26,252 bases of DNA, from contig CALMPB010000507.1 in the NCBI GenBank assembly GCA_937871985.1, positions 1-26,252 of the forward strand, in the 5' to 3' direction. The notes below the pieces were generated by a model. It worked only from the letters and a program-made list of their open reading frames with translations, made no database searches and was not told where the DNA came from. This document shows, piece by piece, positions 3,184 through 26,252 of this stretch. The stretch's first letter is position 1. Every line of letters begins with the position of its first letter. This DNA is from an uncultured Burkholderiaceae bacterium. Its GTDB lineage: Bacteria; Pseudomonadota; Gammaproteobacteria; Burkholderiales; Burkholderiaceae. The translations under genes and the position numbers were made by a program.

Positions 3184-3228
3184 CACAGCGGAATGGATTA
3201 ATTTCAGTGATACGGAACGATTAAAGAC

Positions 3229-5006: not shown

Positions 5007-5055
5007 GAGCAGCGTCGGATTTTTATTAAAAGCACCACCTATATGGAGACAAAAC

Positions 5056-6579: not shown

Positions 6580-6593
6580 GTCTGGAGCTTAAC

Positions 6594-10443: not shown

Positions 10444-10453
10444 ATTTTATTGT

Positions 10454-10470
10454 GGGCCGAATGTCGGCCT
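10454..10470. terminator. Hairpin after the importer genes (weak terminator or spacer)
   Basis: GGCCGA and TCGGCC (10455-10460 and 10464-10469) pair around a 3-nt ATG loop, extendable by one G-T wobble. It lies 11 bases past the ATPase stop. No T-run follows, so if it terminates it is not a classic intrinsic terminator; it could instead protect the 3' end of the importer mRNA. Confidence 0.35.
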
Positions 10471-10537
10471 ATATCGATGAAGTTGTCCATTCTGGGCAAT
10501 GAAACATATTTATGCGACAAACGCAGGAGAAGAGTGC

Positions 10538-11635: not shown

Positions 11636-11679
11636 TTATTTCGCCGCACACGTAGGAAGTGGCAAGCGTCCTTTGTTTT

Positions 11680-11703
11680 GCGCATCGCCCTTGTTCGATG
11701 CGC
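11680..11703. terminator. 8-bp hairpin between the Rieske and small cupin genes
   Basis: GCGCATCG (11680-11687) and CGATGCGC (11696-11703) are perfect 8-bp arms around an 8-nt loop. A run of six T residues lies about 13 bases downstream, just before the AGGAG ribosome site of the cupin gene. It could be a partial terminator that lowers downstream expression, or an RNA processing site. A strict intrinsic terminator would have the T-run directly after the stem, so the call is tentative. Confidence 0.45.
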
Positions 11704-11734
11704 CGGGCACGAGATCTTTTTTAGGAGTGTTTTT

Positions 11735-12262
11735 ATGTATAAGGCGCGACACGCTCGTCCAACAGAGTTGGTCAATGCTTCATTGGAGCAAATTTTGGCT
11801 CAACAAACGGGACGCTTCAGGGACAAAGCCTCTGACTGGAACGCGTTCGAGGACGCGAAGATAGAAGGGTTCAAACGGGCGCAGCACCGTTTTATCGGAG
11901 CAGGAGGCTCGGGCAAGTTCGATGATCCTTCAATAATACCAGCGCGTGGGTTTACGCTCAGCATTATGTTCGTCAATCCTGGGCAAGGCAATGCTGCCCA
12001 CACTCACGAAGTGGAAGAAGTATTTTTTGTACTGCAGGGCTTTCTCGATGTTTTTGTTCAGTCGGAGGACGGGAGGCAGCTTTGGACCCGGTTGGGCCCT
12101 TGGGAGTGCGTGTCGTGTCCACCGGGCGTCATACATGGCTATGAAAACAAGAGCTTGGAGCCAGTCTATTTCCAGGTAATGTTGGGACGCGCCAAGCCCG
12201 AAACCATGGGCTATGCAGATGATGACCTGTATCAGCGCCGCGATGCTCATCTGAAAGGTTAG
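11735..12262 (+). CDS. Single-domain cupin protein
   Basis: The product is 175 residues from the ATG at 11735, which has TAGGAG nine bases upstream. The first cupin motif is textbook: HTHEVEEVFFVLQG gives His89, His91 and Glu95. The second motif, PPGVIHGYEN, gives His134. All four metal ligands are present, so a metal site is likely intact. Small cupins of this kind act as dioxygenases, isomerases or decarboxylases, or as sensors, and the sequence does not distinguish these. Its position between a Rieske oxygenase and an aldehyde dehydrogenase argues for a catabolic enzyme acting on the same substrate. Confidence 0.82.
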   Translation: MYKARHARPTELVNASLEQILAQQTGRFRDKASDWNAFEDAKIEGFKRAQHRFIGAGGSGKFDDPSIIPARGFTLSIMFVNPGQGNAAHTHEVEEVFFVLQGFLDVFVQSEDGRQLWTRLGPWECVSCPPGVIHGYENKSLEPVYFQVMLGRAKPETMGYADDDLYQRRDAHLKG

Positions 12263-12301
12263 AGCGGCGCTTTGCATTCAGACGTTCTGGAAGAGAGATA
12301 C

Positions 12302-13744
12302 ATGCATAAAACTAACTTAGCGGTTGTACAGAGTTATATCGGAGGCGAATATCAGGCATGCGCTCACGGTTCAAGAATACCGCTTATCCATCCTGAATCG
12401 CTTCAAGTTGCGGGGCACATCGAGGAAGCCAACGCGGAACAGGTCGAGCATGCTGTGGCAGCGGGACACAAAGCATTCATCGGGAACCGGACGGTACCTC
12501 TGTTTCATCGGATAAGTTGGCTTAACGCTGCAGCAGGCCTGATGGAAGAAAGGAAGTCACAGATCGCGGAACTGATTCTGGAGGATGTCGGTAAGCCTCG
12601 CCGAATCGCAGAGGGAGAAGTCGTTCGATCCATTCAATTTGTCAGGGCCTGCGCTATTCAGCTTCAATCGATGGGCGGGGAGACATTGCCTCTCGATATG
12701 ACCGTGGCGGGCGCAGGGCGTTTCGGGTTTACTCGTAGAGTACCGTATGGAGTTGTTGCCGCCATTACGCCGTTCAATGCCCCGGCCAATTTGCTAATCC
12801 AGAAAATCGCGCCCGCTTTGGCGGCCGGCAATGCGGTAATCGTAAAACCTCATCTAGCCGCAAGCAGAACGACTTTGGCAATCGCCGAATGCTTCCATGC
12901 CGGCGGGTTTCCTTCGGGCCTGCTGGGCGTTGTCGTTGGCGATCGGATGCCGGTCGCCCCGCTGGTAACAGACCGCCGTATTCGGGCTATTACTTTTACA
13001 GGCGGCTCGGAGGCCGGCAATGCAATCGCGCGGCTTGCCGGCGCGAAGAAGTTCATCGCCGAGCTAGGCTCGAATTCAGCCAACATTGTCCTGGAAGATG
13101 CCGATCTGGGCGATGCGGCAAAAAAAATAGCTTCGGCGGCTTTCGAGGCGAGCGGCCAGCAGTGTGTCTCCGCTCAGCGAGTTATTGTCGCCGCGGCAGT
13201 CTATGAGGAGTTCCTTGCCCACTTAGTCGCCGCTACGCTGCAGCTCAAGGTTGGTTCCCCCAGAGACAAGGAGACAGATATTGGTCCTATGGTTTCGATA
13301 ACAGCTGCTGACAAGGTCATGGGAATGGCCGAGTCCGCGATAAAAGGCGGAGCCACATATGTGCTCGCGCCTAAACAAGAGGGGTGCTTCGTGACCCCTG
13401 GGATAATCGCAGACGATTCCGGTAACAGCTCAGTGTGGAAGGACGAGGTATTCGGTCCCTTGGTTGTGATCCGGCAAGCAAAAGACATCGGTGAGGCGCT
13501 TGATCTTGCGAATGATTCGCCCTTTGGGTTGCAGGGTGCAGTTTTCACCCGATCATTACCGGCCTCATTCGAGTGCATCGACGAGTTTGACGTGGGTTCC
13601 TTATGGATAAATGAGGCTAGCCGTTTTCGTCTGGATACTTATCCTTTCGGTGGTGTTAAAGACTCAGGTTTCGGGCGTGAAGGTGTGCGGTTTGCTATCG
13701 AGGAACTATCGCAACTGAAGTTTATTGGGATAAAGCCACGATGA
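12302..13744 (+). CDS. NAD(P)-dependent aldehyde dehydrogenase
   Basis: This is a 480-residue ALDH-superfamily enzyme of full length. The conserved Asn159 lies in TPFNAP, the cofactor segment is FTGGSEAGN (about 232-240), the general base is Glu254 in FIAELGSNSANIV, and the catalytic thiol is Cys288 in SGQQCVSAQRV. The usual ELGGxxP segment is replaced by ELGSNS, as in some phosphonoacetaldehyde- and lactaldehyde-type members, so the subgroup is not the classic benzaldehyde one. I chose the ATG at 12302; an in-frame ATG 10 codons upstream has a poorer context. Its stop overlaps the next start (ATGA at 13741-13744). It probably oxidises an aldehyde released by the Rieske enzyme or a hydrolase here. 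Confidence 0.92.
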   Translation: MHKTNLAVVQSYIGGEYQACAHGSRIPLIHPESLQVAGHIEEANAEQVEHAVAAGHKAFIGNRTVPLFHRISWLNAAAGLMEERKSQIAELILEDVGKPRRIAEGEVVRSIQFVRACAIQLQSMGGETLPLDMTVAGAGRFGFTRRVPYGVVAAITPFNAPANLLIQKIAPALAAGNAVIVKPHLAASRTTLAIAECFHAGGFPSGLLGVVVGDRMPVAPLVTDRRIRAITFTGGSEAGNAIARLAGAKKFIAELGSNSANIVLEDADLGDAAKKIASAAFEASGQQCVSAQRVIVAAAVYEEFLAHLVAATLQLKVGSPRDKETDIGPMVSITAADKVMGMAESAIKGGATYVLAPKQEGCFVTPGIIADDSGNSSVWKDEVFGPLVVIRQAKDIGEALDLANDSPFGLQGAVFTRSLPASFECIDEFDVGSLWINEASRFRLDTYPFGGVKDSGFGREGVRFAIEELSQLKFIGIKPR

Positions 13745-14676
13745 GCAACGATGCCATGAGTGTCCAGCCTTCAACTGTTGATCATCAAACCACCCTTTTT
13801 CTCGAGGAAATCGGGCCACGGTGGGGACTCAACGTCGCGGCCAATGTACGTCGAGTAGTCAAGCACTACGATCCGATTCTGGCAAAAGCGCCAAAAGAAA
13901 ATATCGTGGTGCACCGAAATATCCAGTACGGTTCGGGCGATGAGCGGCAGCAGCTGGACATTTTCACGAAGCCGGAATATTCATGCCGCCCGGTCGTGAT
14001 GTTCGTTCATGGCGGAGCTTTTGTAGAAGGGAGCCGTAACCGGAGCGATGAAGTGTATTCGAACGTTCTAAATTACTTTTCGAATCGCGGCATGGTCGGG
14101 GTTAATGTGGAGTATAGGCTTGCCCCAAAGCACTCTTATCCGGCAGGATCAGAAGATATGGCGCTTGCGGTCGATTGGGTGGTCGATAACATCGAGAAAT
14201 ATGGTGGCGACCCGAAGAATGTTTTTTTGATGGGGCATTCGGCTGGAGGCGCCCATGTCGCTTCTTATTGTTATGAAGAGCGTTTTGGCGCAAGAGAACG
14301 GGTCCGCGGTGCGATCATCATTAGTGGAAGGGTGCGCGCCGATAATAATGTCGCGGAAAATCCGAATGCCCATAAAGTAAGCGCCTATTACGGTAACGAC
14401 GCCTCGGTATATGAACGAGTGTCGCCCGTCAATCACGTGAGTTCACAAAGCCCCCCGACCTTCATCGCTTTTGCGGAATATGAAAACCCCTTGATCGATG
14501 TTTACTGTTTGGAACTCGCCTACAAACTGGCACTTGAGAACCGCAAGGCGCCCACTGTGGTGCGTGTCCCCCGTCATAACCATACGTCAATCATTGCTCA
14601 CCTGAATACTTCAGAGGATTGGTTGGGAAGGCAGTTATGCGAGTTCGTTTCAGCACACGCATACGCACAAGGTTAG
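13741..14676 (+). CDS. Alpha/beta hydrolase, HSL/kynurenine-formamidase-like esterase
   Basis: The 311-residue protein has the oxyanion motif HGGAFVEGSRN (about 90-100), which is HGGA rather than HGGG, and the nucleophile elbow GHSAGG with Ser167. His281 in RHNHTSI is the likely base; the acid is probably near 246-253 (EYENPLID). YRLAPKHSYPA is typical of the hormone-sensitive-lipase and arylformamidase-like group. No signal peptide is seen, so it is cytoplasmic. Translation is coupled to the ALDH gene by a 4-bp overlap. It may hydrolyse an ester, lactone or amide intermediate. It is clearly different from the hydrolase at 3229-4377, which has a helical cap domain. Confidence 0.87.
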   Translation: MSNDAMSVQPSTVDHQTTLFLEEIGPRWGLNVAANVRRVVKHYDPILAKAPKENIVVHRNIQYGSGDERQQLDIFTKPEYSCRPVVMFVHGGAFVEGSRNRSDEVYSNVLNYFSNRGMVGVNVEYRLAPKHSYPAGSEDMALAVDWVVDNIEKYGGDPKNVFLMGHSAGGAHVASYCYEERFGARERVRGAIIISGRVRADNNVAENPNAHKVSAYYGNDASVYERVSPVNHVSSQSPPTFIAFAEYENPLIDVYCLELAYKLALENRKAPTVVRVPRHNHTSIIAHLNTSEDWLGRQLCEFVSAHAYAQG

Positions 14677-14852
14677 AACACGATCATCTAGCTTTAAACG
14701 ATCTGCGTGTTGGCAGCAGCCCATAGCCGTCAGGGCAAGGGTAATAAAAGGAGGGGGCATATACATCGAATCAGAAGCATTCAAGCCGCAATGCCGCGGC
14801 TCCAAACGATTAATACAGAACTTATCCCAAATCAAAAAGTAAGGCATAACTA

Positions 14853-16037
14853 ATGAAATCACCAAATATTTCGAAAATGAAATCAGGCGCGCTTTTATTC
14901 GCTTTGATCATACCCTTCATGGCACGGGCACAGGACTCGACCAGCGTTACTTTCTATGGTGTTGTCGACACGGCGATCGAGTATGTGAACAACATTCCCC
15001 AGTATCAGAACGGTGTGGAGACCGGCAAGCACAGTTCCGTGCACTTCACCAACCTCACGTCCTCCGTTCCATCGCGCTGGGGGCTGCGCGGCCGCGAAGA
15101 TCTGGGCAATGGCTTGAGTGCCGTATTCAATCTCGAGTCCGGGTTCAACACGGGAACGGGCACCTCGGGGCAGGGGGGGCGTTTATTCGGACGTCAAGCC
15201 TGGGTCGGATTGAAGGGGGACTGGGGACAACTGGCTTTCGGACGCCAAAATAGCATGTTGCTCTACAGCCTTGTTCGTGCGGACATCATGGGCCCCAGCG
15301 CGCACGGTCTTGCCGCCTTCGACACCTTTATCCCCAACGCTCGCATTGACAACGCGATTACATACCGTGCCAATTTCAACGGATTCAAATTCGGAGCCGC
15401 TTATTCGCGCGGGCGTAACAGCGTCGCGGGGGTCACTCCTGCGGCGGCCAACTGTGGCGTCGATTATGGTGATCAGTCTGCGTGTTCCTCCTGGTCCGCA
15501 ATGATGGGGTACGATACCGCGAACTGGGGTGTAGCCGCAGGATACGACACGATGCGGGGTAACAATCCGGTGGTGAATTATGAAGGGCTCGCCGCAGGAG
15601 AGAACGATACCCACTGGACGGTCAACGGCTATGTCAAGTTTGATGCCCTAAAGATCGGTCTTCTGTATATGAATCACAAGACGGATGCGGCTCAAGGACT
15701 GAATAAAACAGCGCCTTTCAACTCCGGGCGATCACTTGGCGACCGCAGCGATATGTGGCAGCTTGGCGCCTCCTATCGATTAAGCCCTGCCGTTACGCTG
15801 GACGGAACGGTCAACTACCTGCGCTACAATAATGCGACCGAAAGCTCAAATGCTTGGTACTACGTTGCGCGTGCTACTTATTCGCTGTCAAAGCGTACGG
15901 CTGTATATGTGTCTGCCGCGTACATGAAAAACAAGGGGCTATCGGCGAACTCGGCAGCGAGCGGCACAGCACTCGTACTGGCACAGCAGGGTGGAAATCA
16001 AACAGCTGTGATGACTGGCCTGCGACATAGCTTCTAA
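14853..16037 (+). CDS. Burkholderiales-type trimeric porin (outer membrane)
   Basis: The 394-residue precursor has a signal peptide ending in ARA (about residue 26), then mature DSTSVTFYGVVDTAIEY, the usual first strand of Gram-negative porins in Burkholderiales. Family marks include SRWGLRGREDLGNGLSAVF, GLKGDWGQLAFGRQN and alternating aromatic strands. The C-terminus, GLRHSF, ends in Phe, as required for outer-membrane assembly. TAAGG lies upstream of the ATG. It follows the esterase by 176 bp in the same direction and precedes the AraC regulator, so it probably provides outer-membrane entry for the substrate of the region 1 pathway. It is a paralogue of the leftward porin at 24660-25718, but clearly divergent. 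Confidence 0.95.
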   Translation: MKSPNISKMKSGALLFALIIPFMARAQDSTSVTFYGVVDTAIEYVNNIPQYQNGVETGKHSSVHFTNLTSSVPSRWGLRGREDLGNGLSAVFNLESGFNTGTGTSGQGGRLFGRQAWVGLKGDWGQLAFGRQNSMLLYSLVRADIMGPSAHGLAAFDTFIPNARIDNAITYRANFNGFKFGAAYSRGRNSVAGVTPAAANCGVDYGDQSACSSWSAMMGYDTANWGVAAGYDTMRGNNPVVNYEGLAAGENDTHWTVNGYVKFDALKIGLLYMNHKTDAAQGLNKTAPFNSGRSLGDRSDMWQLGASYRLSPAVTLDGTVNYLRYNNATESSNAWYYVARATYSLSKRTAVYVSAAYMKNKGLSANSAASGTALVLAQQGGNQTAVMTGLRHSF

Positions 16038-16337: not shown

Positions 16338-17294
16338 ATGGATATCTTAAGTGAAATTCTTTCCGGTGTTCGGGCCGAGCGTGCGATGTCCGCGCATTTC
16401 AAGCTGTCTGCCCCCTGGGGGCTATCTTCCGCTGGAGTCCGGTCACTACTGATTCGGATGTCAAAAGGCAGCCATTATTGGATGAAGGTGCGAGATTTGC
16501 CGCCGACTCGCGTCGATCCAGGCGAAGTGGTGCTTATTCAGCCCAACGTGGCTCACACCATTAGTTCCGATCCGGACGGCGGGAAAAGGCCGTTCTCGGA
16601 TTTATTCGCTGATCTGCATATCGAGCGTGTGGGAAGGCCTCTGGTTATTGAGTATGGAGGGGGAGGGCAAGAGATTGAACTTTACAGTCTCTTGTTGTGG
16701 CTACCGTCTTATTGCCACCGCATAATATTTGAGGCTTTACCGCCATTCGTACACGTGAACGCCCAGAGAAGCCGTTCAGTCGAGGTTCTGGCAATGGCGA
16801 TGCAGTCTCTAATCGAAGAGTCTTTCGCACGGCAGCCTGGATCCGAATTGTCTATGGTCCGGCTGGGTGAGCTGCTGCTTGTGAACATATTGAGCGAGCA
16901 GTTGCTGAAGAAAAATTTCGAAGGCGATGGATGGTTAAGGGGATTGGTGGATCCCCACATTATTCGCGCCTTGAACTGCATACATGCCGAGCCTGAAGTC
17001 CGATGGACTATGGATCTCTTAGCCAGTAGGGCTGCGATGTCGCGATCGAACTTTAGTTCCCGCTTCAAGGCGGTAATGGGTGTCACGCCCTTTGCTTATT
17101 TAACTAATCAAAGGATGCTTCGTGCGGCTTTCCTGATCGAAACGGGAGTTCGCAACGTGAAACAGCTGGCGGACGCGACTGGGTACGAATCGGAAAAAAG
17201 CTTTATTCGCGTGTTCGCTAATTGGAGCGGCATGACTCCCAGCCAATATGTCAAAAATAAGCACCCCGAGGGGGCGGGGAAGAGCACGCTTTAG
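16338..17294 (+). CDS. AraC-family transcriptional regulator with N-terminal cupin sensor
   Basis: The 318-residue protein has an N-terminal cupin-type ligand domain (about 1-200) containing LLIRMSKGSHYWMK and VDPGEVVLIQPNVAHTI. A C-terminal pair of helix-turn-helix motifs follows (about 215-310). The second HTH shows the family pattern VKQLADATGYESEKSFIRVFANWSGMTPSQYV. A GAGGTG ribosome site precedes the ATG. The layout matches the AraC group whose N-terminus is the Cupin_6 type, many of which activate catabolic or oxidative-response genes. It ends the rightward region 1 string, so it most likely senses the pathway substrate and controls the cupin/importer/Rieske/porin genes. Its binding sites cannot be read with confidence. 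Confidence 0.9.
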   Translation: MDILSEILSGVRAERAMSAHFKLSAPWGLSSAGVRSLLIRMSKGSHYWMKVRDLPPTRVDPGEVVLIQPNVAHTISSDPDGGKRPFSDLFADLHIERVGRPLVIEYGGGGQEIELYSLLLWLPSYCHRIIFEALPPFVHVNAQRSRSVEVLAMAMQSLIEESFARQPGSELSMVRLGELLLVNILSEQLLKKNFEGDGWLRGLVDPHIIRALNCIHAEPEVRWTMDLLASRAAMSRSNFSSRFKAVMGVTPFAYLTNQRMLRAAFLIETGVRNVKQLADATGYESEKSFIRVFANWSGMTPSQYVKNKHPEGAGKSTL

Positions 17295-17626
17295 GAAAAT
17301 ATAGCCGTGTTCGATGAGAAAGGGTTCTGACCGATCGTAATAGACATATCAACTGGCCACAAATAGTCAGTTTTTTGGTCGACCTATCGATTTCAACGAG
17401 AGCACTCGTCAAGACGGGGTGCATCCGCGCCAATAAGAGAAGCCGGCGAGCCTTGGGCTGGAGCTATGTTTGCCGTGTCCACGGCGTCTAATGGACTGAA
17501 TCACTCGACGTTATTTCAAGAAGCCTCTGCAAATAGCGGCTCCGCAGCTACGCCTAAGGATGTATGCCGCAGGTATGGCGAACTCATGTCGATACCTCTG
17601 AGAAAGCCCATTGGGTCTTGCCGTAG

Positions 17627-17645
17627 TGCGGGTTTCTACGCATAG
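17627..17645 (+). promoter_or_regulatory. 19-bp element shared with the porin promoter (copy 1)
   Basis: TGCGGGTTTCTACGCATAG here is identical to the reverse complement of 25894-25912. With the next two bases (AA) it contains a perfect 14-bp dyad, TTCTA-CGCA-TAGAA (17633-17646), similar in size to IclR-type operators. It lies 24 bp before the 27-bp element and about 95 bp before the gene start. Confidence 0.65.
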
Positions 17646-17669
17646 AACACTTTTTTGCCCTTGTTTAAA

Positions 17670-17696
17670 ATACAAAAACTATTTTCGAATACAAAA
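17670..17696. promoter_or_regulatory. 27-bp AT-rich element shared with the porin promoter (copy 1)
   Basis: The element begins ATACAAAAACTATTTTCG and continues with a second TACAAAA half-site 19 bp after the first. It matches 25830-25856 at 23 of 27 positions with no gaps. It ends 44 bp before the binding-protein ATG, where a repressor or activator would contact the promoter. The IclR protein encoded downstream is the obvious candidate ligand-responsive regulator, by inference. Confidence 0.65.
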
Positions 17697-17740
17697 CATA
17701 CTGATTCGTAGAACTCCGTGACCTTCGAAAGGAGAAGCCC

Positions 17741-18793
17741 ATGCGTCCCCCCTTGGCTGGACTTGAACATACCTTTTGTTATCGCTTTGCTTGTGCCGCG
17801 GCGGTGTTGATGGCGAGCTTCTCGATTTCGGCCCATGCCGAAGTGACCAATGCATCGGATCGTTGTGCCGCCGTCGATTTGCAGGCGGCTCCTGCCAAAC
17901 CCGTGGCCATACGATACGGCATAACGGGCGGCGGTGAAGAGCCGCTTGCCTTGTTATGGGCCGACCGGAAAAACTATCCCGGCAATGGTTCCTTTTATGA
18001 TTTGCAGCCACAAAAATTCAGGCCCGGCGACCGAATGACCGCTGTGCAGGCCGGCAGTCTGGATGCTGGCTCGATCACGCTTCCTGCCTTGATCACAGCT
18101 GTGAGGGTCGGGATTCCAATACGCGCTGTGGCGTCCATAGTCGAGACCAACAAAGACGATAATCAGGGCGCGTTTGCTGTGTTGCGAGAAAGCGGCATCA
18201 CAGATATCAAGCAGCTAAAAGGCAAGCGTATAAGCATATTGGGGCCAAACACAATCAGTGAATATTGGATCAAGAGCGCCCTTCGCAGAGCGGGATTGAA
18301 GCCTGGCGACGTCAGCTATGTGTCTCTTCCGATTCCTGCTAACGAGCAAGCGCTGCGTAACAAGCAGATCGATGTTGCATGGCTTGCCCGGCAGTTCCTG
18401 GCCAAGGCCGAGGCTGACGGGGGAGTCGATATCCTGATGCGCCCCATGCAGGCCACACAACAGGCGCATCCAACGACCATGGCGTTTTTCACCCAGCAAT
18501 TCTTGAAAGAACACCCCAAAGCCTTTTGCGCCTGGAGAAGAGATTACCAGAGCGCATTGGCCAACTGGGCAAAAAACCGCAGCCATTACTATCCAGCTCT
18601 CATCGCCGCGGGCTATGTCACTCCTGCCTCCGCGAAAGCGGGTCCGGATGGTGGGCGAGCGCCTGGAGGCAGGCTTAGTCTCGAAGACATCGATGCAACC
18701 ATCAAAGACATGGCGGACGCCCACTTCTTGCCCCCGGGCCCCCAGCTCGAGGCAAGCCAGCTCATCGAGAAAGGCTACACACTCACGCGTTGA
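17741..18793 (+). CDS. Periplasmic binding protein of a sulfonate/nitrate/taurine-type ABC importer
   Basis: The 350-residue precursor has a signal peptide with hydrophobic core FACAAAVLMASFSI and a likely cut after AHA (about residue 33). The mature part has the two-lobed SsuA/NMT1-like pattern. It includes AVQAGSLDAGSITLPALITAVRVG (gene product lobe 1), then GITDIKQLKGKRISILGPNT and the hinge region with LPIPANEQALRNKQIDVAW. A strong AAAGGAG ribosome site precedes the ATG. This family binds sulfonates, nitrate, thiamine precursors and various aromatic acids. With a flavin hydroxylase in the same operon, an aromatic or aromatic sulfonate ligand is plausible but unproven. It is the first gene of the region 2 operon. 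Confidence 0.88.
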   Translation: MRPPLAGLEHTFCYRFACAAAVLMASFSISAHAEVTNASDRCAAVDLQAAPAKPVAIRYGITGGGEEPLALLWADRKNYPGNGSFYDLQPQKFRPGDRMTAVQAGSLDAGSITLPALITAVRVGIPIRAVASIVETNKDDNQGAFAVLRESGITDIKQLKGKRISILGPNTISEYWIKSALRRAGLKPGDVSYVSLPIPANEQALRNKQIDVAWLARQFLAKAEADGGVDILMRPMQATQQAHPTTMAFFTQQFLKEHPKAFCAWRRDYQSALANWAKNRSHYYPALIAAGYVTPASAKAGPDGGRAPGGRLSLEDIDATIKDMADAHFLPPGPQLEASQLIEKGYTLTR

Positions 18794-18829
18794 TCGTGGC
18801 CTTTAATTAATGGAAATTAACGAAACAAC

Positions 18830-19588
18830 ATGATCAAAGTCGAAGCAGTTACCAAGACGTTCAAGCGACACCGTCATGCTTTTCAAGCACTTGGCCCTGT
18901 GGATTTGAATATCCGGCAAGGTGAGTTTGTTACCGTCCTGGGCTCAAGCGGTTGCGGCAAAAGTACTTTGCTGCACATTATCGGCGGATTCGAGACAGCT
19001 TCGACCGGGAGGGTCCTGATCAACGGGCAACCCATAACACATCCAACAAGAAAGCTTGGCATGGTGTTCCAGGAGGCCACACTTTTCCCCTGGAAAACAG
19101 TCTTGCAGAATATCGCCTGGCCGATTGAGCAGGCAGGTAAAAGTCGCAGCCAGGCCCTGACCGAAGCCACGGTGTATTTGGATAAGGTCGGCCTGCACCG
19201 ATTCGGGCGTGCCTATCCTTACGAACTTTCTGGTGGTATGCGCCAGCGCGCAGCCTTGGCGCGAACGCTTGCTATGCAGCCCGATGTCCTGTTGATGGAC
19301 GAGCCTTTTGGGGCTTTGGACGCGCAGACGCGCGAGGAAATGCAAGAAGAGCTCACCCGCATGTGGCAAGAGTCAGGGCTTACGGTTATTTTCGTCACGC
19401 ACGATATTACCGAGTCGATTTTTTTGGGAGACCGCGTCGTCGTGCTGGGCCGAAAGCCTGGCACCGTTGTAGAAGAGTGCGTTATTGATCTGCCGCGCCC
19501 CCGCAGCGCCCAAACCAAAGCCGATCCCAAGGTGCAGGCGTACCGCACCCACTTGTGGGAATTGATTCGACAAAGCGCTTCATCCTGA
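18830..19588 (+). CDS. ABC importer ATPase, SsuB/TauB type
   Basis: The 252-residue cytoplasmic ATPase has Walker A GSSGCGKST (38-46), the Q-loop at VFQEATLFPW, signature LSGGMRQR (133-140), Walker B LLMDEP (154-159) and the switch His191 in FVTHDITE. The short length and LFPWKTVLQNI segment are typical of the nitrate/sulfonate/taurine group. It lies 36 bp after the binding-protein gene and 4 bp before the first permease gene. Between the binding-protein stop and this start is a small AT palindrome (TTAATT/AATTAA). Confidence 0.94.
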   Translation: MIKVEAVTKTFKRHRHAFQALGPVDLNIRQGEFVTVLGSSGCGKSTLLHIIGGFETASTGRVLINGQPITHPTRKLGMVFQEATLFPWKTVLQNIAWPIEQAGKSRSQALTEATVYLDKVGLHRFGRAYPYELSGGMRQRAALARTLAMQPDVLLMDEPFGALDAQTREEMQEELTRMWQESGLTVIFVTHDITESIFLGDRVVVLGRKPGTVVEECVIDLPRPRSAQTKADPKVQAYRTHLWELIRQSASS

Positions 19589-19592
19589 GTCC

Positions 19593-20399
19593 TTGACGCC
19601 AAAACAAATGATCTACAGAAATAGAAAGCCCAGTTCCGAGCTTTGGGCCATCACGCTAGGTTTTCCCTGCGTCCTCATCGTTCTCTGGGAAGTCGCGGCT
19701 CGCAGCCATGTTTTCCCCGGCTATATGGTGGCGCCATCAACCATACTGAAAGAATCATGGAACCTGATTACGCATGGGGAGATATTCACGCAGGCGGGAG
19801 CCAGTTTATATCGAACCTACGTCGGTTTTGTGATCGGTTCGGCCATTGGTGTCGCTCTGGGGCTGCTTTCGGGCGTATCCCGCGTGACGCAGGATTTGTT
19901 CGATACGGTGCAAGGCTTCGTGCACTCCATACCAAAGATTTCTTTGTTTCCGGCCATTGCTATTTGGCTTGGGTTTTCCGATGCATCTCGAATCATCATT
20001 ATTTCGCTCAGCTGCTTTTTTCCGGCCTATTTGAATGCCATGAATGGCGCGCTGGGTATCAACCCAAGTTTTATCTGGCTGAGCAAGAACAATGAGGTCG
20101 GCCGGCTGCGGTGTTTCATGGAAGTTGTCGTTCCGGCGAGCCTGCCTCGAATTTTCGTAGGCCTTCGCATCAGCCTTATGGTCGCATTCATTCTGATGGT
20201 GGCAACTGAGGTCATCGGCCATTCGGATGGGCTCGGCTCTTTGGCGATGTCTGCATACGAAAACGGCGAATATGCCGAAATGTATGCCGCAATCTTGTTC
20301 ATAGCAGTGGCTGGCTACTGTTCCAATCTCGTGTTGCAGCGTGTCGCATCGGCCCTGTGCCGCGGCCAGATGCTCAATCAGGAGAGCTCACAGAGATGA
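19593..20399 (+). CDS. ABC importer permease 1, SsuC/TauC type
   Basis: This 268-residue inner-membrane protein has about six transmembrane segments and the family layout, including PSIPKISLFPAIAIWLGFSDASR-like spacing around residues 105-135. The coupling loop is VVVPASLPRIFVGLRIS (about 175-190), followed by EVIGHSDGLGSL. The start is uncertain: TTG at 19593 or ATG at 19608, five codons later; neither has a strong ribosome site, and coupling to the ATPase gene just upstream is likely. The stop overlaps the second permease start by 4 bp. Confidence 0.9.
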   Translation: MTPKQMIYRNRKPSSELWAITLGFPCVLIVLWEVAARSHVFPGYMVAPSTILKESWNLITHGEIFTQAGASLYRTYVGFVIGSAIGVALGLLSGVSRVTQDLFDTVQGFVHSIPKISLFPAIAIWLGFSDASRIIIISLSCFFPAYLNAMNGALGINPSFIWLSKNNEVGRLRCFMEVVVPASLPRIFVGLRISLMVAFILMVATEVIGHSDGLGSLAMSAYENGEYAEMYAAILFIAVAGYCSNLVLQRVASALCRGQMLNQESSQR

Positions 20400-21151
20400 G
20401 TAAACGCTCAACCATCGCCAAACTGCTGGGCGTGCTTATATTCCTTGGCATCTGGCAAGGCTTTGCCGTCCTCAGCAGCACACGAATGTTTCCCAGCGCG
20501 ATTACCGTATTTACTCAGCTGGGTTATCTGTTGGCCTCAGGGGTTCTGCTCGACAACGCACTATCCACGCTGTCAAAAGGGTTTGCCGGGCTCGCGCTTG
20601 CCCTTGTTGCCGGATCATTGCTTGGAATCGTTTGTGCCAGGAACCGCTACTTCAACGCAGCTCTGAATCCTCTGGTCTCTGTGCTCTATCCAGTGCCGAA
20701 ATTGGCGCTCTACCCCGTAATCATCCTCATTTTCGGCCTGGGGGCCTGGTCGAAGATCGTTCAGGTTGGACTGGAGTGCTTTTTCCCGCTGTTTGTCCAA
20801 ATGTATGCGGGCACCCGTGCCATCCCCAAGAGCTTGCTGTGGCTGGCCTCCAATAACCAGGTCAGGGGCTGGCAATTGCTAAGGGATGTCCTGCTGCCGT
20901 CATTGCTGCCTTCCTTGCTCACGGGCCTGCGTATCGCCACGCCCATCATGCTGATTGTCATGAGCGTCACTGAGTTTATTGGAGAGTCCAGTGGCCTGGG
21001 ATATTTGATTGTGCGTTATTCGTCCTATTTCGACCCGGCTTCCGCGTTGGCTGTTGTTGTCACGCTTGGGCTGCTCGGGCTGGGAGCTGACCGGCTGATC
21101 GTATGGTCACGCGCCAAGGTCGTGTTCTGGGAAAAACAAGTACAGCTGTAG
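20396..21151 (+). CDS. ABC importer permease 2, SsuC/TauC type
   Basis: The second permease has 251 residues and starts at the ATG at 20396, inside the stop of permease 1 (ATGA), with AGGAG 11 bases upstream. It has about six membrane segments, YPVPKLALYPVIILIFGLGAW in the middle and the coupling loop VLLPSLLPSLLTGLRIA, then EFIGESSGLGYL. It is clearly homologous to permease 1 but divergent. Most SsuC-type importers have one permease gene and form homodimers; here a heterodimer is implied. Confidence 0.9.
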   Translation: MSKRSTIAKLLGVLIFLGIWQGFAVLSSTRMFPSAITVFTQLGYLLASGVLLDNALSTLSKGFAGLALALVAGSLLGIVCARNRYFNAALNPLVSVLYPVPKLALYPVIILIFGLGAWSKIVQVGLECFFPLFVQMYAGTRAIPKSLLWLASNNQVRGWQLLRDVLLPSLLPSLLTGLRIATPIMLIVMSVTEFIGESSGLGYLIVRYSSYFDPASALAVVVTLGLLGLGADRLIVWSRAKVVFWEKQVQL

Positions 21152-21182
21152 TTAGGTAAGCGAACCAAGGAGATTTCAAGAG

Positions 21183-22733
21183 ATGTTAAGGCAACAACAC
21201 GATGTCGTTATTATTGGTGCGGGGCTGGCCGGCCTGTCTGCCGCCGTCTTTTTGGCGCTGAACGGCGTACGTGCCGTTCTGATTGAACGGCATCCGTCCA
21301 CGTCGGTCTTGCCCAAAGCGCGGGGCCAGAATCCCGTGACAATGGAAATGTTGAGGGTCGCCGGCATTACCGATGCCATTCGTGCGGCACGGCCGCCAGG
21401 CAAACCCGCTATCACCTCTTTAGTTTCGGAGAGCTTGACCGGCAAGGTGATTTACGACCATATTGCCCATCGGCCGGATTTTTCGCGGTTTTCGCCGGAG
21501 ATTCCAGGGATGGCAAGCCAGGCGAGGGCCGAAGAAGCTCTGCTTGATCGAGCGCGGGAGCTCAATGTTGATATACGTTTCAATTCAGAATGCGAAAGTG
21601 TTGCCGAGCGGGAAGATAGCGTAGATTTACGTATTCGTGATCTTCACCATGGCTCGACCTACGCAATTACTTCTCAATATCTGATTGCATGTGACGGTAT
21701 TCGAGGCAACACTAAAGAGCAGATCGGTATTGCCGACCATGGAGTGGGTCACCTCAAGTCGGTCACGGCCGTGCGTTTCAACGCCGACCTGTCTCGCTGG
21801 GCGGGTGACAACTCGATGGTAATTCATTATGTGCAAAATACCGATCTCCCCGATGACTCTGGTATTCTGGTCAGCACCGACTATAAAAATCAATGGGTTG
21901 CCAATTTTTCGTCCGATGCTGCCCGGACACCGGAGGAAACCCGCCACCTGATATATATTTTGCTTGGCCTGACGGAAGACCAGTTGGACATCGAGATCAC
22001 CGGCGAAACCACCTATAACTATTCGCACCGTATTGCTGATCGCCTCAGTACTCAGCGAGTGTTCTTAACCGGCGATGCGGCCCATGTCATGCCACCCACC
22101 GGCGGCCAGGGGGGCAATACGGCTTTGCAGGATGGGTTCTATCTTGGGTGGAAATTGGGTTATGTAGTGCGCGGCATTGCGGGGCCGGGATTGTTGGCCA
22201 GCTACGATATAGAACGGCGCCCCTACGCGGAAGTTGTATGTACGTGGCAGGCTGCCAATTTGGCCGAACGCCGTGATATGAAGAGTCTGGCGGAAATTAC
22301 CGGTGATCCTATCGATCACGCCACAATGATGTTCGGATATGTTTGCGTTGACGGGGCATTTGTGAAACATCCGGATCAATCGACGCCTTCGCTTGAGTAT
22401 CCCTTTGAAGATCCAAGTGCTCCGACGGCGATGCCGGGGGCCCGGGTCCCATATGTCTATCTCAACAGCAATGGGAAAAAGTTCAATACACGCCATTATT
22501 TGAGTCAACAGTTTCAAATCTATACTGATAGCGCTGCCCTGGTCGAGAGCCTTCAGGCTGTGGGTGCTGAACTTGGTGTTCCTCAGCAGACTACGCTTGT
22601 CGAGTCTGTAGAACCGCTGAAAATACAACCGGGCAATGCTATGTTGATTCGTCCGGATGGGGTCGTCGCATGGCGTGGCAATAGTGCGGAAAACCTGAAA
22701 AGCGCATATCAGACGATTCTGGCGCGCGCCTGA
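21183..22733 (+). CDS. Group A FAD-dependent aromatic hydroxylase (phenol hydroxylase/MhpA-like)
   Basis: The 516-residue flavoprotein contains the Rossmann motif GAGLAG (12-17) with Glu35 at the end of strand 2. It also has the DG motif ACDGIRG (Asp171-Gly172), the GD motif LTGDAAHVMPP (Gly297-Asp298) and GGQGGNTALQD (about 307-317). The C-terminal region (about 410-516), with MLIRPDGVVAWR, is the thioredoxin-like tail of the phenol-hydroxylase, MhpA and TfdB group. Such enzymes use NAD(P)H and O2 to hydroxylate aromatics, usually ortho or para to an existing hydroxyl. AAGGAG lies ten bases before the ATG. It is in the same operon as the importer, so it probably performs the first attack on the imported compound. 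Confidence 0.93.
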   Translation: MLRQQHDVVIIGAGLAGLSAAVFLALNGVRAVLIERHPSTSVLPKARGQNPVTMEMLRVAGITDAIRAARPPGKPAITSLVSESLTGKVIYDHIAHRPDFSRFSPEIPGMASQARAEEALLDRARELNVDIRFNSECESVAEREDSVDLRIRDLHHGSTYAITSQYLIACDGIRGNTKEQIGIADHGVGHLKSVTAVRFNADLSRWAGDNSMVIHYVQNTDLPDDSGILVSTDYKNQWVANFSSDAARTPEETRHLIYILLGLTEDQLDIEITGETTYNYSHRIADRLSTQRVFLTGDAAHVMPPTGGQGGNTALQDGFYLGWKLGYVVRGIAGPGLLASYDIERRPYAEVVCTWQAANLAERRDMKSLAEITGDPIDHATMMFGYVCVDGAFVKHPDQSTPSLEYPFEDPSAPTAMPGARVPYVYLNSNGKKFNTRHYLSQQFQIYTDSAALVESLQAVGAELGVPQQTTLVESVEPLKIQPGNAMLIRPDGVVAWRGNSAENLKSAYQTILARA

Positions 22734-22740
22734 GCCTGCC

Positions 22741-23622
22741 ATGAAACGCGTGTTGGTAACGGGGGCAACGGGGCGGATAGGCGGCTTATTGGTTCGTCGT
22801 CTGCTTGATGATGGTGTGGCGGTTCGCGTACTCGTTCGGGATTTAGGCCGCGTTCCGCCTCAACTACGCCAGGCGGAGATCGTTCCCGGAGAGTTCGAAG
22901 ACCTGGCGCTTATGAAGCGCGCTCTAACTGGCATCGAGCGTGCGTTCTTTTATACCCCCCCCAACCTCGATCCGCGTTTATTTCCGCTTGCCGCTGAGTG
23001 CGGTGTGAGACACGTCGTATTGCTGTCTTCTGCGTCGGTAACCAAGGTTCCGGCGCAAAGCCGCAATCCCATTGCCGAACGGCATCGCAGAGCCGAAGAG
23101 TCCATACAGCAGAATGGGCTTGGTTGGACGTTTTTGCGGCCCGATCTGCTTGCGTCAAATTGTTTGCAGTGGGCGGCATCCATTCTGGAGCGCGACGAAG
23201 TGCGTGTCGCCTACCCTGAATCGTTGCGTAATCCCGTGCATGAAGATGATGTCGCGAATGTGGCTGCCCGCGCCTTGTTGACATCCGGGCTTGACCGGCA
23301 GGCCCTTACCTTGACCGGGCCCGGCATGCTCACCATCAAAGAGCAGGTACAAAAGATCGCAGAGGCCGTCGGCCGTCCCATTCGCTGTGTGCGCATCAGC
23401 CCTGAGGACGCTGTGGCGGAATACCTGGCCAGCCACCCTACGGCATCCTTCTCTGTGGCTCGCCTCCTGGTGGAGTATCAACACAAAACGGTCGCGCAGG
23501 CGCCGGCCAGCACTCCCGACTTTACCCACGCAACGGGCTTGTCCGCCAAAACGTTTGCTGCTTGGGCGTGGGATAATAAAAGGGAGTTCATGCCTGAATT
23601 CGGTACAATACGCGGCAGTTGA
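22741..23622 (+). CDS. NmrA-family NAD(P)-binding protein
   Basis: The 293-residue protein begins MKRVLVTGATGRIGGLLVRR, with the glycine-rich GATGRIG (8-14) dinucleotide motif of NmrA-type atypical short-chain dehydrogenases. HVVLLSSASV and WTFLRPDLLASNCLQW follow the same family. It starts 7 bp after the hydroxylase stop, so it is co-translated. Members act as redox sensors, as NADPH:quinone oxidoreductases (QorB), or as reductases. Here it could recycle a quinone made by the hydroxylase or sense NADP status. The catalytic Tyr-x3-Lys is not obvious, so a sensor role is also possible. Confidence 0.85.
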   Translation: MKRVLVTGATGRIGGLLVRRLLDDGVAVRVLVRDLGRVPPQLRQAEIVPGEFEDLALMKRALTGIERAFFYTPPNLDPRLFPLAAECGVRHVVLLSSASVTKVPAQSRNPIAERHRRAEESIQQNGLGWTFLRPDLLASNCLQWAASILERDEVRVAYPESLRNPVHEDDVANVAARALLTSGLDRQALTLTGPGMLTIKEQVQKIAEAVGRPIRCVRISPEDAVAEYLASHPTASFSVARLLVEYQHKTVAQAPASTPDFTHATGLSAKTFAAWAWDNKREFMPEFGTIRGS

Positions 23623-23699
23623 TATATTGGATTCAGCTGTTACCGGCAGCATCGCGGGAACGATATCGATATTCCGGATTTTGATGAAACCCAGATCGT

Positions 23700-23737
23700 G
23701 GGACAGCTTGGCTGTGAAATGCCTGGCAAGCTGTCCC
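23700..23737. terminator. Long inverted repeat between the NmrA-family and IclR genes
   Basis: GGGACAGCTTG (23700-23710) and CAAGCTGTCCC (23727-23737) are perfect 11-bp arms around a 16-nt loop. It lies 78 bp after the NmrA-family stop and 32 bp before the regulator's ATG, with no T-run after it. It may end the enzyme operon, or may be the regulator's own operator or leader hairpin. A smaller dyad, GGAACGATATCGATATTCC, lies upstream at 23657-23675. Confidence 0.5.
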
Positions 23738-23768
23738 GCAAATCCCCGGGTTGCAAGAGAGCGCCCAA

Positions 23769-24605
23769 ATGAAACAGGATCCCCCACAGCAGTTGGCCGA
23801 AGATGATGAAAAGGACCCGTATTGGGTTGACGCATTGGCTCATGGGTTAACCGTTTTGCGTGTCTTCGAGCACTCGCAAGAAGGCCTTAATCTGTCTGAT
23901 ATTGCGCTTCGCCTGGGCTGGAGCCGCACTAAGCCCTATCGCTATCTTCATACGTTGGAGCGATTGGGCTATCTGAGCCGCAACGAGGCGACCAAGCGGT
24001 ATCGGCCCACGTCGCTTACGATGACTTTGGGCTATACATACCTGAGCGGGCTGTCACTGATAGAGCTGGCGCAGCCAGCAATCAATCTGCTGCGGGATCG
24101 GGTAGGCGCCTCGGTGCATTTGGGGATTCTTGAGCAGAATCATGTTGTGTATATTGCCAGTGCCCGTGTGGCGTTGATGCCAGTGGTCAATCTTCACGTC
24201 GGGTCAATTGTTCCGCCGTATGCGACGTCTATTGGCCGCATGCTGCTTGCTCATCTGGATGAAACGGCATTGCAAGCCATCATAGGCAAGGGACCTTTGC
24301 CGGCTCTCACCGAGCATTCGATAACCGATCCGCAGATGTTCAGGAAAATGTTGCGGCAGTCGCAAGTGCGCGGCTATACGATGACCGATGAAGAGTTCCA
24401 TCCAGGGGTTCGATCCATTGCAGCGCCTATTCGTGACCGGGATGGCACTGTCGTCGCAGCGGTAAATGCCACATCCATCATACAAAAATTTTCCGACGAG
24501 TTCATTGCCCAAACCGTCATACCTTGCGTCCTTGATGCAGCCAGGGACATTTCGCGCGGGCTTGGCTATATGGGCAAAGAGACGGTGCAGACGACATCGC
24601 AGTAA
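23769..24605 (+). CDS. IclR-family transcriptional regulator, PcaR/PobR-like
   Basis: The product is 278 residues from the ATG at 23769 (AGAGAG eight bases upstream); a TTG at 23751 would add six residues. The N-terminal winged helix (about 20-85) contains LNLSDIALRLGWSRTKPYRYLHTL. The ligand-binding IclR domain follows, with ATSIGRMLLAHL, EFHPGVRSIAAPIRDRDGTV and AAVNATS. The DALAHGLTVLRVFE opening and HPGVRSIAAP core place it near the beta-ketoadipate regulators PcaR, PcaU and PobR, which respond to aromatic acids. It lies between the importer/hydroxylase operon and a convergent porin. It is the best candidate for the protein that binds the elements shared by their promoters, and it is separated from the enzyme genes by 146 bp with its own dyads. 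Confidence 0.92.
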   Translation: MKQDPPQQLAEDDEKDPYWVDALAHGLTVLRVFEHSQEGLNLSDIALRLGWSRTKPYRYLHTLERLGYLSRNEATKRYRPTSLTMTLGYTYLSGLSLIELAQPAINLLRDRVGASVHLGILEQNHVVYIASARVALMPVVNLHVGSIVPPYATSIGRMLLAHLDETALQAIIGKGPLPALTEHSITDPQMFRKMLRQSQVRGYTMTDEEFHPGVRSIAAPIRDRDGTVVAAVNATSIIQKFSDEFIAQTVIPCVLDAARDISRGLGYMGKETVQTTSQ

Positions 24606-24659
24606 AGGTGTGGCCTTGCGATTGTTACGGTTTGCTGCACCGCCCCAAAGGAATGCATG

Positions 24660-25718
24660 CTAGAAGCGATGACGCATGCCTACCGCTACGCTGGTTGCAG
24701 AGCTGTAATTCGTTATTTTGTCGTACATGGTCAGCAAATAAACATCCGTGCGTTTTGACAATGAATAATCATAAGCGCCGGAGACTGTATCGCGTTTTAG
24801 CTTTTGGCTTCCGGTATCGCGATCGGTGCGCGCCCAGCTCACCATAAACTTCCCTTTCCCCGCGGGGACGCTGGCGCCCAGTTGCCATGTTTTATCTTTC
24901 AGGGGCGTGTTGTGGCGTGATTGCTGATAACTGCCATATAGCTTGAGCCACTTGAAGTCGTAGCTTGTTCCTCCGAACCACGTGGTTTCCTCTGTTAGAA
25001 CGGGCCCCAATGGCAAGCCATCCGGATTGTTCAGGCGTACATGCTGGACAAATGCCGTAGCCATGAATGCCCCATTACGATAAATCACGTTCGCGCCGGC
25101 ATTGCTCTTGCTGTTATCCTGGTCGCCCGTGCCGAACTGGTATACAACGGTACCCGTCAAGCCACCTATGCTGGGAGTTTTGTACTCCAGGCTGTTGCTC
25201 CAGCCGGCATCGCCGTTTATTGCGCTTGTCCAGCTCGGGCCTCGAGTTCCAATGGTCGGCATGTGGGCATGTACATATAGTGGCGACGATGTGGTGGAAG
25301 CGCCGAAAGGATTGGAAAATACAAGTGGATAGAAATTAGGCGCGTGGTTTCGTCCTAGCTTTACCGCTCCCCAGTCCCCTTTGAGGCCTACTGTGGCTTG
25401 GCGGGAGAAGAATGTGTCGCCGGGCCTGGATCGAGAGCCTTCCCCATTATTGACTTGGAAAAAGCTTTCCAGATCGAATGTCGCCGTCAGATTGCTGTTT
25501 ATCTGCTCTCTTCCCGAAAGCCCGAACCAGGATGTCGTCAGTCCGCCATTACCTACCGTATTCGACCTTCCCGGCTCGCCACTGAACTTCATGCTGCCGA
25601 CATAGGCGTCAACAAGCCCGTGCAAGGTGACTGTGCTGGCGGCCTGAGCGGGGGCGATTGCGGCCAAGCACAAAACAGTGAGTGTTGCGCATGCAAAGTT
25701 GCGGTGGTGCCTGTTCAT
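24660..25718 (-). CDS. Burkholderiales-type trimeric porin (outer membrane), second paralogue
   Basis: The 352-residue precursor starts at the ATG at 25718, with CCGGAGA seven bases upstream; the open frame to 25850 crosses the promoter and is unlikely to be translated. The signal peptide MNRHHRNFACATLTVLCLAA ends near APAQA, followed by ASTVTLHGLVDAYVGS. GLKGDWGAVKLGRNHAP and the C-terminal VGMRHRF with final Phe are family marks. It is about 40 residues shorter than the porin at 14853-16037. It converges with the regulator gene (54 bp apart, no clear terminator between) and shares two promoter elements with the importer operon. It is therefore probably the outer-membrane entry channel for the same substrate. 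Confidence 0.95.
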   Translation of the reverse strand: MNRHHRNFACATLTVLCLAAIAPAQAASTVTLHGLVDAYVGSMKFSGEPGRSNTVGNGGLTTSWFGLSGREQINSNLTATFDLESFFQVNNGEGSRSRPGDTFFSRQATVGLKGDWGAVKLGRNHAPNFYPLVFSNPFGASTTSSPLYVHAHMPTIGTRGPSWTSAINGDAGWSNSLEYKTPSIGGLTGTVVYQFGTGDQDNSKSNAGANVIYRNGAFMATAFVQHVRLNNPDGLPLGPVLTEETTWFGGTSYDFKWLKLYGSYQQSRHNTPLKDKTWQLGASVPAGKGKFMVSWARTDRDTGSQKLKRDTVSGAYDYSLSKRTDVYLLTMYDKITNYSSATSVAVGMRHRF

Positions 25719-25829
25719 AGAGTCTCCGGATATTGAGTCGCGTCGCTGTAGGTTGGAGGTGCATATCCCGATTGCACCAAGAGCAACCCCTACGCTGATG
25801 CACGACTGCTTTTTTGGTGGGTGTTTGTA

Positions 25830-25856
25830 ATTCAAAAACTTTTTTCGCATTCAAAA
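25830..25856. promoter_or_regulatory. 27-bp AT-rich element shared with the importer promoter (copy 2)
   Basis: The element begins ATTCAAAAACTTTTTTCG and has a second TTCAAAA half-site 19 bp after the first. It matches 17670-17696 at 23 of 27 positions. It lies about 112-138 bp upstream of the porin ATG, on the promoter side. It overlaps the 19-bp palindrome at 25850-25868. Confidence 0.65.
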
Positions 25857-25868
25857 AACTTTTTTGAA
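25850..25868. promoter_or_regulatory. 19-bp perfect palindrome in the porin promoter
   Basis: TTCAAAAAACTTTTTTGAA is a perfect 9-bp dyad around a central C. An imperfect copy (TTCAAAAACTTTTTTCG) lies 19 bp to the left, so two near-palindromes sit almost two helical turns apart, which suits cooperative binding of two dimers or one tetramer. A/T tracts of this type also bend DNA. Confidence 0.5.
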
Positions 25869-25893
25869 ATATAAACGCTATCGAAACTACGAG

Positions 25894-25912
25894 CTATGCG
25901 TAGAAACCCGCA
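25894..25912 (-). promoter_or_regulatory. 19-bp element shared with the importer promoter (copy 2)
   Basis: The reverse complement of this stretch, TGCGGGTTTCTACGCATAG, is identical to 17627-17645. In the direction of porin transcription it lies 37 bp before the 27-bp element, the same order as in the importer promoter. Its dyad is less perfect here, because TAGCT replaces TAGAA. Confidence 0.65.
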
Positions 25913-25929
25913 GCGCGGCAATGCCGCGC
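25913..25929. repeat. 17-bp GC-rich perfect palindrome
   Basis: GCGCGGCAATGCCGCGC has perfect 8-bp arms around one A and abuts the shared 19-bp element directly. It may extend the regulatory site or mark its outer edge. No matching palindrome lies next to the other copy of the 19-bp element. Confidence 0.4.
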
Positions 25930-26060
25930 AATATGAGTCGTTTCAAGGGGGAAATGTTGAAGGCGTTTCAGAAGAGGAGCGCGCTTGGCGCACTCACATC
26001 GGCGGGGCGTTTGCGATGGGGAGCGCGGGTGCGAGTAGGCCCCGCGGTTGCACGAGGGTT

Positions 26061-26132
26061 GGGAATCACGGTTCCCGTTGTTGCGGTGTGAGTGGCAATG
26101 TCCGGCATTGCCTCTGGAAATACGCTATTTCC
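26061..26132. terminator. Three consecutive hairpins downstream of proB
   Basis: Three small perfect stems follow each other: GGGAA/TTCCC (26061-26076), GGCAATG/CATTGCC (26094-26112) and GGAAATA/TATTTCC (26116-26132, 3-nt loop). The last begins 17 bases past the proB stop on the minus strand, the expected place for proB transcription to end. None has a clear T-run, so a combined termination or mRNA 3'-end protection role is tentative. Confidence 0.4.
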
Positions 26133-26149
26133 GGTACCTGGATGCTGGC

Positions 26150-26252
26150 CTATTCCGAGTCTGTGCGCTGCTTGGGCGCTTGTTCGGGAGCGGCCGTTGC
26201 CGCGCCCTGGCGGCGCACGAAAACCATATTGTCGCGGTGCATGAGCTCCTGG
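26150..26252 (-). CDS. proB: Glutamate 5-kinase, C-terminal end (partial)
   Basis: The minus strand from the window edge reads QELMHRDNMVFV, then a 21-residue Ala/Gln/Pro-rich tail and a TAG stop at 26150-26152. The (V/L)HRDN/DMV segment is the characteristic end of the PUA domain of ProB (E. coli ends VHRDDMITR), the first enzyme of proline synthesis. Only 33 residues are visible, so the name rests on this short match. The tail is longer than in E. coli. The gene is a housekeeping flank of the catabolic block. Confidence 0.6.
   Translation of the reverse strand, partial: QELMHRDNMVFVRRQGAATAAPEQAPKQRTDSE

Follow-up and report, generated by a model that had tools for sequence, protein, structure and literature searches.

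The DNA considered here is a 26,252-nucleotide stretch (the window) from an uncultured Burkholderiaceae bacterium (GenBank assembly GCA_937871985.1, contig CALMPB010000507.1), whose plus strand carries genes for an ATP-binding cassette (ABC) importer, a ring hydroxylase, an NmrA-like protein, and an IclR-family regulator, with a porin gene facing them on the minus strand. The importer operon begins with an NMT1/SsuA-like ABC substrate-binding protein (17741 to 18793), followed by the ABC ATPase (18830 to 19588), two ABC permeases (19593 to 20399 and 20357 to 21151), a flavin adenine dinucleotide-dependent aromatic-ring hydroxylase whose solved relatives include RdmE, RubL, and GrhO5 (21183 to 22733), and an NmrA-like NAD(P)-binding protein (22741 to 23622); the IclR-family regulator is encoded after these (23751 to 24605). 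The porin (Porin_4; 24660 to 25718, minus strand) probably starts at the ATG at 25718, which follows GGAG, and its start was re-set there from position 25850 of the open reading frame list. An AraC-family regulator is encoded upstream of the importer (16338 to 17294, plus strand). We conclude with good confidence that the importer-hydroxylase operon and the facing porin gene constitute one local regulon of the IclR protein encoded between them, a well-supported assignment and a familiar kind of regulon.

A first-pass annotation of this DNA had drawn attention to two elements shared by the importer and porin promoters. The 19-bp element (TGCGGGTTTCTACGCATAG) is indeed identical at 17627 to 17645 on the plus strand and 25894 to 25912 on the minus strand, and it is the sole 19-mer repeated in the window on both strands (19 being the longest word length tried). 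The longest common substring between 17295 to 17740 and 25720 to 26252, the latter stretch extending to the window end and including some coding DNA, is 19 nucleotides, and Markov shuffles (n = 300) reach 12 at most. The 27-bp element also stands at the proposed 23/27 identity (17670 to 17696 against 25830 to 25856), with both 27-mers read on the plus strand; each read in its direction of transcription, they agree at 9/27 positions, which means that the porin copy has the opposite orientation, as is expected for a dyad-symmetric site. The proposed order of 19-bp element, 27-bp element, and gene is correct at both promoters. The gaps of 24 and 37 bp given between the elements had been measured to different dyads; when both promoters are aligned without gaps on the 19-bp element, the distance to the first dyad is 17 bp at each. 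This 17-bp spacer is identical at 5/17 positions, and the two-dyad stretch that follows it in register is identical at 26/38. The hexamer TTGCCG, beginning 9 bp upstream of the 19-bp element, is common to both promoters, and the shared block may begin there (17618 to 17623 at the importer).

The 27-bp match is part of a tandem array of 16-bp dyads of IclR type, two at the importer (dyad 1, 17663 to 17678; dyad 2, 17682 to 17697) and three at the porin (dyad 1, 25861 to 25876; dyad 2, 25842 to 25857; dyad 3, 25823 to 25838, the closest to the gene). With a 16-bp dyad model built from four ortholog promoters, the dyad spacing is 19 bp at both window promoters. Importer dyad 2 (TTTTCGAATACAAAAC) is the best single dyad of the window, and the dyads are AT-rich. 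Four of the five promoter dyads are the top four in the window, and the fifth (25861 to 25876) ranks sixth, being outranked by a dyad at 14868 to 14883 in the start of the window's other porin gene. The four-promoter model gives the importer and porin promoters of the window 30.4 and 28.5 bits, against 13.6 for the best site elsewhere and 22.2 for the maximum of 200 shuffles. Tandem models made from orthologous importer promoters alone again rank them first (scores, 37.6 and 31.3; next site, 14.4; maximum of 60 shuffles, 18.2). A simple inverted-repeat scan missed the dyads in the window importer promoter and in orthologous locus L002, for which the weight-matrix model was needed. Hexamers resembling a −10 box (5/6 match) are located inside dyad 1, at the same position at both promoters (TAAAAT, 17666 to 17671; TATATT, 25868 to 25873, minus strand).

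Related clusters were sought through the binding protein, for which a search returned 67 proteins, including the window's own, from the best 7995 candidates; 46 of them were aligned, and a scan of genome contigs with the alignment gave 13 loci. A binding protein of 80% identity (P0002) is encoded on a metagenome contig. All 13 loci keep the genes from binding protein to hydroxylase in the same order, and an NmrA gene follows the hydroxylase in 12, the remaining locus (L011) ending within the hydroxylase. The cluster is rare: within one family, 2 of 399 genomes contain it, and the 13-locus scan had found both. In a plasmid collection no DNA match to 17300 to 26252 was obtained, relatives of the binding protein in 165 records were all below 60% identity with none covering 80%, and the importer promoter had weak matches alone (E ≥ 1); viral contigs searched with the hydroxylase gave no match.

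An ortholog of the IclR protein (49 to 62% identity) is encoded within the examined stretch in seven of the 13 loci (L001, L002, L003, L009, L010, L011, and L012). The others are L004 to L008, where about 10 kb on each side was examined, and L013, a short stretch; since these stretches are limited, the lack of the regulator there is a lack nearby and not genome-wide. Leave-one-out models, from which both the window and the locus under test were excluded (L009, L011, and L012 being omitted together), placed the top tandem dyads immediately before the importer in 7/7 loci with a nearby IclR ortholog (scores, 20.0 to 38.6; largest shuffle maximum, 14.3; dyad spacing, 18 to 20 bp) and found importer-promoter dyads in 0/6 loci without one. 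L006 and L013 have low-scoring sites alone near the importer (2.2 and 4.8). The window IclR protein (recognition region, GWSRTKPYR) and its seven orthologs have in common the recognition region G-W-x-R-(T/S)-K-P-(Y/F)-R, from which the unrelated IclR protein of L007, a locus without dyads, differs. The suggestion that the local IclR protein is the likely regulator thus gains strong support for the dyad element from comparison of the loci. In L004, L005, L006, and L008, a dyad of the form TTTGACTnnATCAArTA precedes the importer (at 9908, 9779, 9824, and 9745, respectively), and the operon there seems to be under another regulator, which we take to be MarR-like.

Whole-genome scans were made with a model (R1) of nine tandem pairs, three from the window and six from L001, L002, L003, L009, L010, and L011. 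The importer promoter was the best site in G001, G002, G003, G006, and G007, all of which had supplied training sites, and across these five genomes a single further site reached E ≤ 1, weakly, in G006 (E, 0.27). Pigmentiphaga kullae (G004), none of whose sites were in the training set, contained two strong sites (best E, 6.3e-5 and 1.7e-4). Of these, one stands just before the gene for a 379-residue flavin monooxygenase (labeled from its translation); the closest IclR homolog, a protein of 53% identity (the next has 34%, among 16 IclR matches in all) with the recognition region GWSRSKPYR, is encoded about 2.2 kb from this site. The other (L037:8895-8929) begins 57 bp ahead of the start codon of a further ABC binding-protein gene, whose product is NMT1-like from its translation. 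The models that ranked the sites in L009, L011, L012, and G004 were in each case built without the sites concerned. G005 had no R1 site, and its best IclR match was of about 30% identity. None of 40 further genomes had an IclR match at E ≤ 1e-45 or an operator at E ≤ 0.01 (considering up to 150 operator candidates in 14 of the 40), though an empty result of this kind proves nothing by itself. L002 has a second tandem site (17842 to 17876; score, 26.0) upstream of a dehydrogenase-like gene adjoining its IclR gene, a site missing from the R1 matches at E ≤ 1 in that genome; the dehydrogenase-like gene, whose translation resembles 3-hydroxyisobutyrate dehydrogenase, is possibly another member of the regulon.

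The IclR protein contains both domains of its family above the Pfam cutoffs (HTH_IclR, 52.7 bits against 22; IclR_C, 137.1 bits against 24). Its best NCBIfam match is the PcaR/PcaU/PobR model TIGR02431, at 211.1 bits, which is below the curated cutoff of 284.75; the earlier label of PcaR/PobR-like is therefore fair as a likeness and does not extend to membership in the subfamily. We consider it highly probable that this protein binds the dyads, and the 27-bp element is very probably its operator. Tandem dyad spacing of 18 to 22 nucleotides is known for 94 ortholog groups of IclR regulators, for which TtgV is a structural reference (PMC8222616). The window agrees with such groups in its 19-bp spacing near the gene start and differs from them in the third dyad at the porin and in the separate 19-bp element at a fixed distance upstream. 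PcaU and PobR of Acinetobacter, regulators of the β-ketoadipate pathway, resemble the window protein in domain layout, and their operators consist of repeated half-sites of alternating direction, as do the window dyads (PMC8222616). They differ in that the window protein falls below the cutoff of their model, its dyads are AT-rich and off the published consensus, and its predicted targets comprise an ABC importer together with a flavin hydroxylase and a porin, with repression rather than activation being probable. PheR of Sphingobium is an IclR-family repressor of phenanthrene catabolism with the minimal motif GCAACG, for which comparative transcriptomics indicated effects on the envelope (PMC13273656). 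In both systems a single IclR protein would join aromatic catabolism to outer-membrane functions, and the window differs in that its porin promoter has its own predicted operator. Literature searches on IclR operators and on IclR control of a porin plus an ABC importer gave no clear precedent beyond PheR, which is not proof of absence, and no study of this IclR clade was found.

Repression is the most likely mode of control because the −10-like hexamer is inside dyad 1, and on balance we favor the view that the IclR protein acts mainly as a repressor. Its dimers would bind side by side along the dyad array, most likely repressing transcription, until the substrate or a product releases them; the outer-membrane pore, the inner-membrane importer, and the hydroxylase would then be made together. 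Such a regulon would tie the pore to the importer and the ring hydroxylase and predicts a substrate shared by the whole cluster, and the assignment offers a direct route to the inducer. It also provides a concrete predicted operator, specific enough for detection in whole genomes, for an IclR clade without any study that we could find.

Several observations weigh against this assignment or limit its support. The first four ortholog sites were chosen by eye when the window promoters had already been seen, so the test on the window was not blind; model R1 includes window sites, and of the six genomes where the IclR ortholog and the operator are both present, five had supplied training sites. Away from the importer, three of the six loci with no ortholog close by contain a site that slightly exceeds their shuffle maximum (L004, 10.9 versus 10.4; L005, 13.5 versus 9.2; L008, 13.2 versus 11.3). 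In P. kullae the importer cluster (L004) is without dyads although a member of the IclR clade is encoded elsewhere in the genome, and the site at L037 is far from the IclR gene. The dyads fit the published IclR consensus (groups 1 and 2) no better than shuffled DNA does: the best fits at the importer (12/17 and 10/15) were each reached in 85% of 300 shuffles, and those at the porin (14/18 and 12/16) in 15% and 9%. Promoter scans gave no consensus sigma-70 promoter at the importer or porin site. PcaU and PobR are activators, which argues against simple repression. The porins of L001, L003, and L007 are just 35 to 40% identical to the window porin.

The 19-bp element does not share the conservation of the dyads. 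It is absent from the seven orthologous promoters with dyads, where the closest words differ from it at 8 or 9 positions, as control words do, and from seven cluster-bearing genomes at up to 2 mismatches. In 399 genomes a query of the element with one extra G gave one match, with 2 mismatches, against three for the reversed control, which is chance level. The element thus does not behave as part of an IclR site. The idea of a regulator common to both promoters is accordingly upheld by comparative genomics for the dyad element and not for the 19-bp element, and the expected recurrence of the elements in front of orthologous clusters holds for the former and fails for the latter. We conclude that the 19-bp element is separate from the dyads and lineage specific. 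Its 3' end lies where the −35 box would be for the TAAAAT and TATATT hexamers in dyad 1, and the best −35 matches at the two promoters are 3/6 and 2/6. A palindrome with 8-bp arms about one base (GCGCGGCAATGCCGCGC; 25913 to 25929) adjoins the outer side of the porin copy, and GCAATGCCGCG is also present before the window's other porin (14788).

That a paralogous IclR protein encoded elsewhere reads the dyads, with the local one regulating something else, is improbable. The seven genomes searched each contain 1 to 16 IclR matches at E ≤ 1e-20, and in P. kullae the importer cluster has neither an adjoining IclR gene nor dyads, the dyads there serving other genes. The dyads nevertheless track the cluster's own IclR clade, being found at every locus with a nearby member and at none without; among the IclR matches of five cluster genomes the clade member stands clearly first (49 to 62% against at most 33%), one genome having no other match; and one of the two sites in the untrained P. 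kullae genome is near a clade member. The porin promoter might instead be a copy of the importer promoter, its 19-bp identity being leftover similarity and not a working site. A collinear layout with identical spacing would suit such a copy, as would the arrangement in L001, L003, and L007 (the last without an orthologous IclR gene nearby), where the porin follows the operon directly on the same strand. No separate porin operator is expected in these three loci, since the porin gene lies behind the operon; among the loci found, none has a facing porin, and the three with a porin have it in this position. The window porin gene stands apart as a unit that faces the operon and has a longer operator to itself, and the two porins of the window are 29% identical to each other. 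A promoter copy is nonetheless unlikely, as drift has reduced the spacer to chance-level identity (5/17) with all 19 bp of the element still the same, an outcome that neutral drift hardly explains. The simplest reading is that coexpression is kept through an operator where the porin gene is not in the operon.

The 19-bp copies invite two further explanations, both very improbable. They could bound an 8.3-kb mobile element (17627 to 25912) as its terminal inverted repeats rather than serve regulation, being exact and inverted, bracketing the whole importer-to-porin block, and having no counterpart in the relatives examined. Against this stand the absence of a target-site duplication of 2 to 10 bp, the absence of mobility-like functions from all eight annotated genes between the copies, the outward extension of the inverted similarity (TTGCCG) and its resumption inward at the same distance, and the placement of both copies at promoters, oriented with transcription; transposon ends were rejected on the lack of a target-site duplication and of a mobility gene. 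The element could also be a variant of a GGG-W4-CCC-like upstream element of related promoters. A de novo search of nine such promoters aligned sequences of this kind in seven (score, 56.2; highest of eight shuffles, 39.0), strictly in three of them (L001, L002, and L012) and in the first half alone in L008, and the start GCGGG-W3 is common to both elements. Yet a search restricted to the six IclR-type loci did not return it, and among 52466 window positions its model ranks the 19-bp copies 217th and 568th (symmetrized) or 2236th and 4284th (directional), ranks by which it was rejected as the ancestor of the 19-bp element. The GGG-W4-CCC-like element may itself be real, since the pattern RGGGWWWWCCCY has 75 sites, against 28 for its reversed control, summed over seven genomes, although G003 is opposite (1 against 3). 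Literature searches for GGG-W4-CCC strings and for a strain that carries a homolog gave nothing useful. The window's sole GGG-W4-CCC sequence (GTGAGGGTAAACCCGCAA; 1717 to 1734) lies in the divergent region between a major facilitator superfamily gene and a cupin gene.

Beside the IclR operator, we give about an even chance to the 19-bp element being an activator site of a second factor, probably a lineage-specific one; bound 17 bp upstream of the dyad array, this factor would activate transcription. The AraC-family protein encoded at 16338 to 17294 is a possible reader by position, though an unlikely one. Homologs of it (38 to 47%) are present in 8 of 399 genomes, and the eight loci (about 3.9 kb each) contain nothing nearer to the 19-bp element than 6 mismatches, like control words. 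A tentative extension, to which we give somewhat less than even weight, is that both promoters are two-input switches, with IclR dimers over the −10 box and the second, lineage-specific factor on the 19-bp element replacing the −35 box. The pore and importer would then be made only if both inputs agree, and this layout would have been added recently to older IclR control. The element at its fixed distance would offer a clean test of the addition of a second input to a regulon in one lineage.

A second catabolic block (1813 to 16037) encodes α/β hydrolases, a glutathione S-transferase, a peptide-type ABC importer, a Rieske oxygenase, a cupin, an aldehyde dehydrogenase, the other porin, and a 456-residue protein without a Pfam match. 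Its best tandem-dyad score (14.4, at 5020) is below the shuffle maximum of 18.2. The window ends, at about 26150 to 26252 on the minus strand, in a sequence that presumably encodes the C terminus of a glutamate 5-kinase.

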